NCBI RefSeq assembly: GCF_003290025.1 | Contig: NZ_QNHG01000001.1 | Span: forward strand, 305,645-369,644 | DNA length: 64,000 nt | Source: Pseudogemmobacter bohemicus | GTDB taxonomy: Bacteria > Pseudomonadota > Alphaproteobacteria > Rhodobacterales > Rhodobacteraceae | Reading direction: 5' to 3' | Shown here: piece by piece, positions 26,125 through 55,740 of the stretch | Layout of the letters: every line of letters starts with the position of its first letter | Numbering within the stretch: position 1 is the stretch's first letter | Translations under genes and position numbers: made by a program | Notes under the pieces: generated by a model | What the model was told of the DNA's origin: nothing | The model's database searches: none | The model's input: the letters and a program-made list of their open reading frames with translations, nothing else

Positions 26125-27924
26125 ATGACCCAGCTTGATCACATCCGCAATTTTTCCATCGTCGCCCATATCGACCACGGGAAATCCACGCTCGCCGACC
26201 GGCTTATTCAGATGACCGGCACCGTGGCCGAGCGCGATATGAAGGCGCAAATCCTCGACTCGATGGATATCGAGCGTGAGCGCGGCATCACGATCAAGGC
26301 GAACTCCGTCCGGATCGAATATCCGGCGAAGGATGGGAAAACCTATATCCTGAACCTGATCGACACGCCCGGCCATGTCGATTTCGCCTATGAAGTCTCG
26401 CGCTCGATGCGCGCGGTTGAGGGCTCACTGCTGGTGGTTGATGCCAGCCAGGGGGTTGAGGCGCAGACGCTGGCCAATGTCTATCAGGCGCTGGATGCCG
26501 GGCATGAGATCGTGCCGGTTCTGAACAAGATCGACCTGCCGGCAGCCGATCCCGAGCGGGTGAAGGCCAATATCGAGGATGTGATCGGGCTCGATGCTTC
26601 CGATGCGATTCCGATTTCCGCGAAATCGGGCCTGGGCATCCCGGATGTGCTGGAAGCCATCGTGCAGCGCCTGCCCGCACCCAAAGGCGACCGTGATGCG
26701 CCGCTGAAGGCGATGCTGGTCGACAGCTGGTATGACAGCTATCTTGGCGTGGTCGTGATGATCCGCGTCATGGATGGCGTGATCAAAAAGGGCGAGCGCA
26801 TCCGGATGATGCAGACCAATGCGGTCTATCCGATTGACCGCCTCGCCGTGCTCACGCCCAAGATGACCGATATCGCGGAACTCGGGCCGGGTGAAATCGG
26901 CGTCTTCACGGCCTCTATCAAACAGGTCCGCGACACCCGCGTCGGCGACACCGTGACCCATGAGCGTAAAGGCACCGACACGCCGCTGCCGGGCTTCAAG
27001 CCCGCGCAGCCGGTGGTTTTCTGCGGCCTCTTCCCGGTCGATGCCGCCGATTTCGAGGCGCTTCGCGATGCAATCGAAAAGCTTGCGCTGAATGATGCGT
27101 CGTTCAGCTATGAGATGGAGACCTCGGCCGCGCTTGGTTTCGGCTTCCGTTGCGGCTTCCTGGGGCTCTTGCACCTTGAAGTGATCCGCGAGCGGCTGGA
27201 GCGCGAGTTCGACCTTGATCTGATCACCACCGCGCCTTCGGTCGTGTTCAAGCTGCATATGAAAGACGGCGAGGTGCGCGACCTGCACAACCCCGCCGAT
27301 ATGCCCGACCTGACCTATATCGACCATATTGAAGAGCCGCGCATCAAGGCGACGATCATGGTGCCGGATGAATATCTCGGCGATATCCTGAAACTCTGCC
27401 AGGACCGGCGCGGCATCCAGCTGAACCTGACCTATGCCGGCCCGCGCGCCATGGTGGAATATGATCTGCCGCTGGCAGAGGTGGTGTTCGACTTCTACGA
27501 CCGGCTGAAATCGGTGACCAAGGGCTATGCGTCGTTCGACTATCAGTTGAACGAATATCGCGAGGATCACCTCGTGAAGATGTCGATCATGGTGAATGAA
27601 GAGCCGGTCGATGCGCTGGCGATGATGGTCCACCGCGACCGTGCCGAGGCGCGGGGCCGGGTGATGGTGGAAAAGCTGAAAGAGCTGATCCCCCGCCATA
27701 TGTTCAAGATCCCGATCCAGGCCGCCATCGGCAGCCGGGTGATCGCGCGGGAAACGCTGTCTGCGATGCGCAAGGACGTGACGGCGAAATGCTATGGCGG
27801 CGACGCGACGCGTAAGCGCAAGCTTCTGGACAAGCAGAAGGAAGGCAAAAAGAAGATGCGGCAATTCGGCAAGGTCGAGATTCCGCAGACGGCCTTCATC
27901 CAGGCGCTCAAAATGGACAATTGA
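26125..27924 (+). CDS. lepA: Elongation factor 4
   Basis: LepA/EF4 is a ribosome-bound GTPase that acts on stalled or mis-translocated ribosomes and in initiation. The 599 residues equal the E. coli length. G motifs are AHIDHGKST near residues 12-20, [14 protein letters not shown] and NKIDLPAA, and the family-specific C-terminal domain ends [17 protein letters not shown]. The start at [10 protein letters not shown] was chosen by alignment to that length; longer reading upstream is not supported. A factor-independent terminator follows. Confidence 0.97.
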
Positions 27925-27980
27925 GGCGCGGGGGGCATCCCTCCCCTCACTGTCCAGAGATCATTTTCGAAACAGCATGA

Positions 27981-28009
27981 AGCCCCGGTGAGAGTCGCCG
28001 GGGCTTTTT
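27981..28009 (+). terminator. Factor-independent terminator after lepA
   Basis: AGCCCCGG (27981-27988) pairs with CCGGGGCT (27998-28005) and is followed by a run of T. It lies 57 bases after the lepA stop. On the opposite strand it would be the first strong stem after the sRNA array but lacks a U-tract there. Confidence 0.8.
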
Positions 28010-28041
28010 CGTTTTCACGTCTGATCGGAAAGGAGGGGAGG

Positions 28042-28114
28042 GCGGCGGTCCCGAGGGAGGAGGAGAGGGACCGCCGCAAGTTCCGGTGGCGCAAGGGAGG
28101 AGGAGAGCGCCGCC
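28042..28114 (-). ncRNA. CcsR/cuckoo-like sRNA unit 5
   Basis: The 5' hairpin pairs GGTGGCGC (28085-28092) with GCGCCGCC (28107-28114), with one non-pair. The 3' hairpin has a perfect 11-bp stem, GCGGCGGTCCC with GGGACCGCCGC (28042-28052 with 28067-28077). It is the last unit; another CCUCC-rich stretch follows at 28031-28041 without a stem. Confidence 0.78.
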
Positions 28115-28158
28115 GAACTGGTCGGGCAGGAGGTTCAGACCTCTGCCCTTTTGGGAGG

Positions 28159-28233
28159 GCGCAGCGGCTCCAGGGAGGAGGAGGGGAGCCGCCGCGCTTT
28201 CCGGAAACCCCAGGGAGGAGGAGAGGGGGTCCG
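28159..28233 (-). ncRNA. CcsR/cuckoo-like sRNA unit 4
   Basis: The 5' hairpin pairs CCCC (28208-28211) with GGGG (28225-28228). The 3' hairpin pairs GCGGCTCC (28164-28171) with GGAGCCGC (28185-28192) and extends outward with GCGC pairing past one position that is G-U on the minus strand. It is a near copy of unit 3 with changes confined largely to the stems. Confidence 0.8.
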
Positions 28234-28280
28234 AACTGGTCTGACCCGGGCGCCATAAAGGCGATGGGCCACTATTTTGC

Positions 28281-28353
28281 GCAGCGGCTCCAGGGAGGAG
28301 GAGGGGAGCCGCTGCAGTTTCCGGAAACCCCAGGGAGGAGGAGAGGGGCTCCG
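28281..28353 (-). ncRNA. CcsR/cuckoo-like sRNA unit 3
   Basis: The 5' hairpin pairs CCCC (28328-28331) with GGGG (28345-28348), with an outer GG/CC pair. The 3' hairpin has a perfect 11-bp stem, GCAGCGGCTCC with GGAGCCGCTGC (28281-28291 with 28305-28315). It is nearly identical to unit 4 over about 80 bases, so one is a duplicate of the other. Confidence 0.8.
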
Positions 28354-28397
28354 AACTCGTCAGGCCCGGCGCGATGCGCTGCAGACCGGTATCTGGT

Positions 28398-28466
28398 GCG
28401 GCGACCCCAGGGAGGAGGAGGGGGGTCGCCGCGGTTTCGAAGGCCCGAGGGAGGAGGAGAGGGCCA
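28398..28466 (-). ncRNA. CcsR/cuckoo-like sRNA unit 2
   Basis: The 5' hairpin has a short stem GGCCC/GGGCC (28442-28446 with 28461-28465) around a 14-base loop. The 3' hairpin has a perfect 11-bp stem, GCGGCGACCCC with GGGGTCGCCGC (28398-28408 with 28422-28432). The anti-Shine-Dalgarno-like CCUCCUCCC lies in both loops. Confidence 0.8.
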
Positions 28467-28500
28467 CCGAACTATACGGGCATTGCTGCCCTGAATTGGG

Positions 28501-28567
28501 TGGCGCCACCTGGGAGGAGGGTGGTGGCGCCGCTTTCACGCAGGATCCAGGGAGGAGGAGAGGATCC
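28501..28567 (-). ncRNA. CcsR/cuckoo-like sRNA unit 1
   Basis: This is the first unit after the DUF1127 gene. The 5' hairpin has stem GGATCC/GGATCC (28543-28548 with 28562-28567). The 3' hairpin has stem GGCGCCACC/GGTGGCGCC (28502-28510 with 28523-28531), and its loop is altered to TGGGAGGAGGGT on the plus strand. The extra stem bases suggest a processed RNA of about 70-100 nt. Confidence 0.8.
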
Positions 28568-28580
28568 AGGACGCGGAAAC

Positions 28581-28793
28581 TTACTTGCCGTAGGCCGCTT
28601 CGCGGGCAACCTCGGTGATCATGGCGCGCGAGAGGCCCAGGTCCGACAGGTCGCGATCCGAGAGCGAGCGCAGCTCTTCCAGGGTGCGCGCATAGAGCTT
28701 GCGGCGCGCGATTGCGTTGCGCAGGGCCTCGACAACATCGCCAAACAGCGAGGGGCGGGCGAGGGCGGCGCGGGAGGTGTTCACATATGCCAT
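28581..28793 (-). CDS. ccaF1: DUF1127 small protein, CcaF1-like
   Basis: This 70-residue basic protein ends in the DUF1127 motif: LYARTLEELRSLSDRDLSDLGLSRAMITEVAREAAYG. In Rhodobacter sphaeroides the DUF1127 protein CcaF1 is encoded just upstream of the CcsR sRNAs, is co-transcribed with them from a stress (RpoH-type) promoter, and binds RNA to influence sRNA processing. Here the hairpin array begins 13 bases after its stop on the same strand, which strongly supports the same role. The upstream 290 bases, shared with the divergent apbC gene, should hold the promoter; I could not fix a -35/-10 pair with confidence. Confidence 0.9.
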   Translation of the reverse strand: MAYVNTSRAALARPSLFGDVVEALRNAIARRKLYARTLEELRSLSDRDLSDLGLSRAMITEVAREAAYGK

Positions 28794-28923
28794 TTCATCA
28801 AGCCTTTGCGTCAGGATCGGCGGTGGTCTTGCCAGGGTTGGCGGATCTTCGTGCCGGTCTGTTGCTTTCCGTTGTCGCTAACATGCGGGCTTTTCTGCGT
28901 TTGCACAATAGACGGCCCGACAA

Positions 28924-28938
28924 TGCTGCCATGCAGCA
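28924..28938. promoter_or_regulatory. TGC-rich palindrome between ccaF1 and apbC
   Basis: TGCTGC-CAT-GCAGCA is a perfect 6-bp inverted repeat with a three-base spacer. The core CTGC-N3-GCAG equals the site reported for the polyhydroxyalkanoate regulator PhaR in Rhodobacter/Paracoccus. It lies 131 bases upstream of the ccaF1-like gene and 146 upstream of apbC. The link to PhaR is inference. Confidence 0.4.
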
Positions 28939-29083
28939 ATCGCATGGCTGTTTCGGGGCCTATGTCATTGATATGAACAGATATGATTAATCCATGGGCG
29001 GTCTGCGAACAGATCTTTCTCCGCCCCTTGCCCTTTCCGCAAAAACTGCCGAGTCTCAGTCAGCGATTTGTCCGGAGAGAACG

Positions 29084-31027: not shown

Positions 31028-31531
31028 ATGGCTGAGGCATTCAGAGGCGAATTCTACCAGAAGGTAGATGCTAAGGCGCGGGTCTCGATCCCGGCGCCTT
31101 TTCGCCGTGTTCTGGAGGCCGGAGATGTCGGGGCTGCGTCCGGGCGCCCGCGCGTTGTGATGGTCTATGGCGGCCGCGCCGGTCAGGCCTATGTTGAATG
31201 CTATTCCGTCGCGCAGATGACGGTGATGGAAGACAGGATCCGCAAGCTCGCACCCGGCACGCCGCAGCGCAAAGTGCTTGAGCGCAATTACATCACCCTC
31301 TCGCAAACGGTTGAGATCGACGATGATGGCCGTCTTGTGCTGCCGGCCAAGGTGCGCGAACGGATCGGCCTGAACGATGCTGCCGAGGCCTGTTTTGCGG
31401 GCGCTCTGGATACGTTCCAGATCTGGCTGCGCGAGACCTATGATGCGGAAATGGCGGCCCAGGAAGAGATTGATCTCGACCTGCCCGATGGTGCGGATCT
31501 CCTCTCGCTCCTGCCGCATGACGGGGCGTGA
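31028..31531 (+). CDS. mraZ: Division/cell wall cluster regulator MraZ
   Basis: This 167-residue protein has two AbrB/SpoVT-like halves (VDAKARVSIPAPFRRVL near residue 13 and IDDDGRLVLPAKVRERIGL near 97). MraZ is a DNA-binding regulator of its own operon. It is the first gene of the peptidoglycan/division block and lies three bases before rsmH. Confidence 0.95.
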   Translation: MAEAFRGEFYQKVDAKARVSIPAPFRRVLEAGDVGAASGRPRVVMVYGGRAGQAYVECYSVAQMTVMEDRIRKLAPGTPQRKVLERNYITLSQTVEIDDDGRLVLPAKVRERIGLNDAAEACFAGALDTFQIWLRETYDAEMAAQEEIDLDLPDGADLLSLLPHDGA

Positions 31532-55666: not shown

Positions 55667-55740
55667 CTCTGATCCTTTCTGCTGCGGGGGGAAACTAGCG
55701 CCCCTGCCGCAATGCGGCAAGGGATGGCCGATTTCGGAAT

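Follow-up and report, generated by a model that had tools for sequence, protein, structure and literature searches.

The 64,000-nucleotide stretch of Pseudogemmobacter bohemicus DNA analysed here, called the window below, carries a string of ten RNA hairpins on its minus strand (28580-28043). Each hairpin has CCUCCUCCC in its loop, and the ten are arranged as five double-hairpin units behind a short DUF1127 gene. Judged from its sequence, this is very probably a ccaF1-CcsR locus (cuckoo RNA, CIN1-type). It is a genuine, well-formed, and ordinary member of an already known family. What is new is a family-wide two-box promoter element with a likeness to PhaR operators, and this is a more useful result than the array itself. 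By analogy with characterized relatives, the hairpin string probably blocks protein synthesis from selected messenger RNAs (mRNAs) under stress.

The exact sequence CCTCCTCCC occurs ten times in the window, only on the minus strand and always within the array. By coordinate, the copies lie at 28055-28063, 28095-28103, 28173-28181, 28213-28221, 28293-28301, 28333-28341, 28410-28418, 28449-28457, 28512-28520, and 28550-28558. Among 100 dinucleotide shuffles the count averaged 1.06, peaked at 5, and never reached 10. Loops of the same unit are 38-40 nucleotides apart, and the units follow one another at distances of 118, 120, 116, and 101. A stem closes every loop, with stem scores of 6-13 (n = 10). 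A first-pass annotation, made from the letters of the sequence, had proposed ten constant-loop hairpins in five units, and ten exact 9-mers where 1.06 are expected bear this out. The interval it gave, 28042-28567, does hold the array but leaves out the 5' foot of unit 1, which reaches 28580.

The units are CcsR-like members of the cuckoo/CIN1 kind by sequence, without the status of curated members of the Rfam family CcsR1 (RF02791). In a search by E-value, all five matched RF02791 over its full length, at 35.0-54.4 bits and E-values of 2.3e-12 to 1.3e-6. All on the minus strand, they are unit 1 (28495..28580; 46.7 bits, E 4.5e-10), which has two hairpins and CACCCTCCTCCCA as its second loop, unit 2 (28393..28475; 54.4 bits, E 2.3e-12), unit 3 (28276..28356; 51.1 bits, E 2.2e-11), unit 4 (28156..28241; 46.3 bits, E 5.8e-10), and unit 5 (28043..28118; 35.0 bits, E 1.3e-6). 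No other CcsR1 match in the source genome has E <= 0.001, the next-best one having an E-value of 0.21. A second family, ar14 (RF02344), fitted more weakly, giving four full-length matches and one partial match in the array when the whole window was searched at E <= 0.1. All were under the gathering cut-off of 58.8 bits, the best reaching 49.3.

The gene directly upstream of the array and on the same strand (28581..28793) encodes a 70-amino-acid ccaF1-like DUF1127 protein and is the first in the presumed transcript. It matches PF06568 with an E-value of 8e-11 (41.9 bits, cut-off 23.3), as the first-pass annotation had supposed; a comparison of the protein with NCBIfam gave no match. Its nearest relatives in named genomes are found in Paracoccus sp. 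IB05 (99%), Pseudogemmobacter hezensis (87%), and P. humi (73%). The locus thus combines what characterizes a cuckoo/CIN1 locus: at least two CCUCCUCCC-loop hairpins, helices that stay paired despite sequence change, and an adjacent DUF1127 gene.

Covariation was assessed on 50 units, five from the window and 45 from other loci, out of 186 available. RNAalifold returned an 11-pair consensus helix for the second hairpin, with 96.3% of cells paired and two-sided changes at 9/11 pairs. Cells with two-sided changes numbered 65 vs 11.2 in shuffles, and on each of five measures all 500 shuffles scored lower. When the partner columns were slid by 1-3, pairing of this helix fell to 32-65%. A wider set of 399 hairpins was taken from clusters in the window and in loci L015-L072. 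A stem score of at least 6 was reached by 94% of them, compared with 48% when arms from different hairpins were mixed and 18% when arms were shuffled. Loops are constant and stems variable, as had been claimed, and the ten identical 9-base loops, the stem test, and the covariation agree on this. The CcsR/cuckoo identity proposed at first pass is supported by how the units match the family, by the gene order, and by covariation in the second hairpin. These, together with the sequence itself and the conserved promoter region described below, are direct observations.

Several points weigh against this identification. At Rfam curated thresholds, the window search gave zero matches, and the RF02791 gathering cut-off of 65.3 bits is missed by all five units (best 54.4). 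The covariance search suggested by the first-pass annotation does find RF02791 matches, with scores under the curated threshold. No consensus helix was returned by RNAalifold for the first hairpin, which is also less regular when aligned. A terminator scan found no terminator-like site on the array strand. The sequence CCTCCCCTCCTTTCC follows the last hairpin of unit 5, and this hairpin may be the 3' end of the transcript. Finally, targets in the source organism are predicted from a motif only. The cut-off itself was put in perspective by a survey of 198 family genomes, one per genus. A CcsR1 match at E <= 0.001 was present in 163 of them, and the curated cut-off was passed in only 9. It thus marks a narrow group, and falling short of it says little.

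The array had been described as expanded. This is true by comparison with Rhodobacter sphaeroides, which has four CcsR RNAs (PMC10253847), but not by comparison with the family, whose arrays range in size from 2 hairpins to at least 23. Counting the source genome, 28 of the 163 genomes with a match have at least five CcsR1 matches, with a maximum of ten per genome; such matches are sometimes spread beyond one array. The 74 arrays located through the promoter element have 2 to 23 hairpins each, counted within the fetched 1.5 kb only (two stretches were shorter). Since 15 of the 74 have at least ten hairpins, five units are on the long side but ordinary. One locus, L147 (G165:C1), has at least 25 CCTCCTCCC loops spaced 42-51 nucleotides apart, in an array that nearly reaches the end of its stretch. 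The free variation in unit number makes these arrays a natural dose series for repeated anti-Shine-Dalgarno loops.

The same arrangement is seen in near relatives, with five units in Paracoccus sp. IB05 and four each in P. hezensis and P. humi. Positional counterparts in these three are 63-78% identical to window unit 1, 80-91% to unit 2, and 86-97% to unit 5. Window units 3 and 4 are 83% identical to each other, and each is 94-95% identical to the equivalent IB05 unit. In P. hezensis a single unit stands in third place, 74 and 77% identical to window units 3 and 4, respectively, and the third unit of P. humi shows no preference (66 and 68%). The best account of these identities is one tandem duplication predating the split from IB05, which probably gave rise to units 3 and 4. 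Alternatively, a unit may have been lost in the four-unit species.

The region upstream of the DUF1127 gene contains the candidate promoter TTGTGC-N17-CATGTT (28880..28908, minus strand), which is conserved in related upstream regions and, judging from R. sphaeroides, would be of the RpoH type. It is presumed to be a promoter from its placement and spacing. No sigma-70-type site was found in 27900-29000. The window has CAT, while the figure legend that supplied the sole published RpoH consensus compared (PMC10673084) shows TTG and TAT. Most aligned upstream regions of DUF1127 relatives share a conserved block of about 100 bp. Its order is CTGCATGGC[AG]GCATTG, about ten free bases, ATTGTGCA, GCAGCA, and CATGTT. 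Two boxes are recognized within it, both given here on the minus strand. Box 1, CTGCATGGCAG (28926..28936), lies upstream of the presumed -35 and is a candidate PhaR site. Box 2, TTGTGCAAACGCAG (28895..28908), overlaps the presumed -35 and has the family form TTGTGCANNYGCAGCA. The window has a weaker copy of Box 2, with GCAGAA where the family has GCAGCA.

The two-box element is found across the family. The pattern CTGCATRGCRGCAWTG-N8..12-ATTGTGCA occurs at 87 places (L142-L228) in 84 of the 198 genomes, and the reversed pattern at none. The GCAGCA half-site, which is outside the search pattern, has each position kept in 84 to 87 of the 87, and TTGTGC-N16 or N17-YATNWT is present at 63 of them. 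At least two CCTCCTCC hairpins follow within 1.5 kb downstream at 74 of these places, and at least one at 80. The remaining 13 have fewer than two, and seven have none. As a control, the first 1.4 kb of 30 phaC loci was put through the same hairpin test on both strands (60 strands in all), and none was positive. A DUF1127 gene was found in 27 of the 74 arrays by a strict pattern, which is an undercount. At L027, L030, L032, L040, L042, and L043, the best box is only 106-121 nucleotides before the first loop. This leaves no room for a DUF1127 gene, so the element is tied to the RNAs and not solely to the protein. At L207 and L210, the element stands before a DUF1127-like frame, and no CCTCCTCC hairpin was seen within 1.5 kb.

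PhaR of R. sphaeroides recognizes CTGCNNNGCAG, which Box 1 fits. In Sinorhizobium meliloti, two PhaR sites flank the -35 at the phasin promoters phaP1 and phaP2, and PhaR also acts as a repressor of the small RNA MmgR (PMC12542648 for all three). A phaR gene is present in the source genome (PF07879, E 1.8e-27; PF05233, E 4.3e-12) and in 191 of the 198 family genomes. The pattern TGCNGCATNGCNGCA occurs 17 times in the source genome, compared with 2 for its reversal. One of these places is between phaC and a phasin gene, which is followed by phaR, and is located just 5' of the phasin start. A paired palindrome stands at this place, and most of the genus mates fetched have one at the equivalent phaC locus.

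The training set of a 17-bp PhaR matrix comprised 24 boxes taken from 12 phasin-gene loci of the window's genus, the source genome included, and nothing near CcsR. With this phaP-trained matrix, Box 1 in the window's ccaF1 upstream region scores 21.9 bits, compared with a maximum of 15.2 in 4000 random 253-nucleotide windows. Among the upstream regions of DUF1127 genes (window plus L045-L072), 20 of 29 are above the 99th percentile of this null and 9 are below. The best matches at L057 and L069 exceed the percentile yet lie outside the conserved block. At L047 the match is inside the block, though the pattern used to check for the block missed that locus's GTTGTGCA. In 3-kb stretches around four DUF1127 paralogues of the source genome, the best box scores were 0.9-9.9 bits, none of them comparable. 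For CcsR loci chosen by RNA match alone (L015-L044), a second null served as reference; 27 of 30 score above its 99th percentile and 25 above its highest value (11.7 in 3000). These loci are the best-scoring of 30 genera rather than a random draw, and because family sequences are related they are not independent events.

PhaR repression, relieved on polyhydroxybutyrate formation, would be the simplest reading of the two boxes. Confidence is evenly divided on whether the ccaF1-CcsR promoter is, across the Rhodobacter family, an old two-box PhaR target that PhaR would leave when polyhydroxybutyrate granules form. The balance reflects the Box 2 spacing, a conserved inverted repeat, the loci without a good Box 1, and the negative literature search described below. 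Box 2 has a four-base spacer in addition to its weak copy in the window, and the matrix, which takes a three-base spacer only, leaves it unscored. The inverted repeat, GCCATGC...GCATGGC, overlaps Box 1, is conserved in many loci (upstream regions of L045-L065), and is not accounted for by a PhaR site. Of the RNA-selected loci, L016, L035, and L041 are below the 99th percentile, and L016 is among the three loci with RF02791 scores above 100 bits. Box 1 is positioned between the divergent ccaF1 and an Mrp-type gene, and so could serve the Mrp-type gene in the source genome. A different regulator with a TGC-rich site is also possible.

The literature searched contains no report of PhaR binding at a ccaF1-CcsR promoter. 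Nor is PhaR joined there with CcsR, CcaF1, cuckoo RNA, or NfeR1, with most subscription papers lying outside the search. The papers in which the term PhaR occurs together with one of these names deal, to judge by their titles, with microwave sensors or medicine; the available part of PMC9230146 names PhaR and DUF1127 separately and without a link. If PhaR control is correct, an anti-Shine-Dalgarno RNA array would be connected to the carbon store in addition to RpoH stress signals. A PhaR site would also bring two questions within reach of testing, namely what sets CcsR levels apart from stress sigma factors and for what reason these RNAs affect carbon flow. A second TGC-rich palindrome, TGCCGCATTGCGGCA, is located elsewhere in the window (55705-55719), with a phosphorylase-type gene on one side and a plus-strand open frame on the other.

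Transcription, processing, and target repression at this locus are reconstructed from better-studied relatives. In R. sphaeroides, CcsR RNAs are co-transcribed with ccaF1 from an RpoHI/RpoHII promoter, and RNase E with CcaF1 cuts the precursor into separate small RNAs (PMC10253847, PMC8625941). PNPase takes part in CcsR RNA decay (PMC7866481), and the RNAs target flhR and bind Hfq (PMC8307010). By analogy, a single minus-strand transcript from about 28875 would contain the ccaF1 message and the five double-hairpin RNAs, and would be induced through RpoHI/RpoHII. The linkers would be cut by RNase E aided by CcaF1, and PNPase would trim the ends. Each RNA of about 80 nucleotides would then display two C-rich loops mimicking the ribosomal anti-Shine-Dalgarno sequence. 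The CCUCCU of the loops is also present at the 3' end of 16S ribosomal RNA. In NfeR1 (ar14), the same loops are termed anti-Shine-Dalgarno motifs (PMC10746234). From both likenesses, repression is expected at GGAGGAGG-rich start sites. The loops would pair with start sites of this type and lower the translation of chosen mRNAs. On such a scheme the target sequence would hold the loops constant, and the stems would only be required to pair.

The pattern GGAGGAGG-N3..10-ATG occurs at 36 places in the source genome, compared with 6 for the reversed pattern. The places are covered by 35 stretches, as two overlap. Frames behind the sites are open for at least 60 codons in 20 of the 35, compared with 42% of all ATGs in a control, so many of the 36 are not real starts. 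Pfam domains were found in 11 of the 20 longer frames. Five of the 11 are transport proteins (NMT1-like, two Peripla_BP_4, DctQ, and DcuC). For NfeR1, most candidate targets encode ATP-binding cassette (ABC) transport systems (PMC10746234), a parallel that is suggestive only.

The first-pass annotation had also raised a regulatory link between the array and a formate dehydrogenase operon. The operon is complete, as stated, and occupies 13076-7018 on the minus strand in the order fdsG (13076-12609), fdsB (12609-11089), fdsA (10979-8073), fdhD (8059-7241), and fdsD (7251-7018). An array dedicated to one-carbon metabolism and directly controlling this operon would fit the presence of the full gene set and the targeting of the FlhR regulator's mRNA by the R. 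sphaeroides RNAs (PMC8307010). It would also fit the loop-to-start pairing of fdsG (-16.7 kcal/mol), tenth among the 55 window genes called. Nine genes nevertheless outpair fdsG. A simple codon-usage caller supplied the starts of the 55 genes, over which pairing has a median of -12.4 and reaches -23.9 kcal/mol at best. On this scale, fdsB (-14.6) and fdsA (-13.2) pair slightly more strongly than the median, fdhD (-12.4) equals it, and fdsD (-5.8) is far weaker. None of the 36 GGAGGAGG-ATG places is within the 64-kb window. The operon is 15 kb from the array, a distance without meaning for a trans-acting RNA. Direct control of fds is not supported, as its starts pair about like those of other genes and the window has no GGAGGAGG-ATG place; dedication of the array to this operon is improbable.

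A different function would follow if the transcript were left unprocessed. It would be one multivalent RNA, whose ten loops would titrate Shine-Dalgarno-rich mRNAs or initiating ribosomes with copy number as the dose. The same nine bases in all ten loops would agree with this, as would a hairpin number of 2 to at least 23 among relatives with the loop unchanged. The R. sphaeroides precursor is, however, cut into single RNAs (PMC10253847, PMC7866481), and the units retain their own stems across species (unit 5 counterparts are 85-97% identical in four strains), which would be needless under a pure dose model. Titration by an uncut transcript is accordingly regarded as rather unlikely, though less so than dedication to fds. 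An ordinary or coding repeat without RNA function has next to no chance of being correct. Open frames on the plus strand do traverse the repeats, but the unit spacings disrupt the reading frame and, not all being multiples of three, rule out a repeated protein as their cause. Covariation in the second hairpin also speaks against a plain repeat, as does a promoter region that is conserved before such arrays in many genera. A string of separate, stress-induced, CcsR-like RNAs is the preferred reading of the array.

On the 3' side, the array is convergent with lepA, a plus-strand gene identified by Pfam (26125-27924). A terminator-like hairpin behind lepA (27979..28007, plus strand) faces the array end. 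The mraZ gene and the dcw cluster are about 2 kb from the array (31028-31531). In R. sphaeroides, the small RNA UpsM derives from the 5' untranslated region of mraZ (PMC7866481). No UpsM-like Rfam match was found in the window at E <= 0.1, and Rfam was not checked for an UpsM model.

The closest known system is CcsR1-4/CcaF1 of R. sphaeroides. In both loci the DUF1127 gene comes first, and the tandem CCUCCUCCC-loop double hairpins after it share its strand and its promoter region. The present locus differs in having five units instead of four and in scoring 35-54 bits, under the Rfam cut-off of 65.3. The available portions of the published accounts of CcsR1-4 make no mention of the two-box element. 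A short DUF1127 gene adjoining CcsR-like RNAs is shared with cuckoo/CIN1 loci in general (PMC10253847). The cuckoo family is described with 2-4 hairpins in the same source, whereas there are two per unit and ten per locus here. Rhizobial ar14/NfeR1 (RF02344) has CCUCCUCCC loops as well. It is a trans-acting RNA of three hairpins with a sigma-70 promoter signature (PMC10746234), unlike the tandem array behind a DUF1127 gene found in P. bohemicus.
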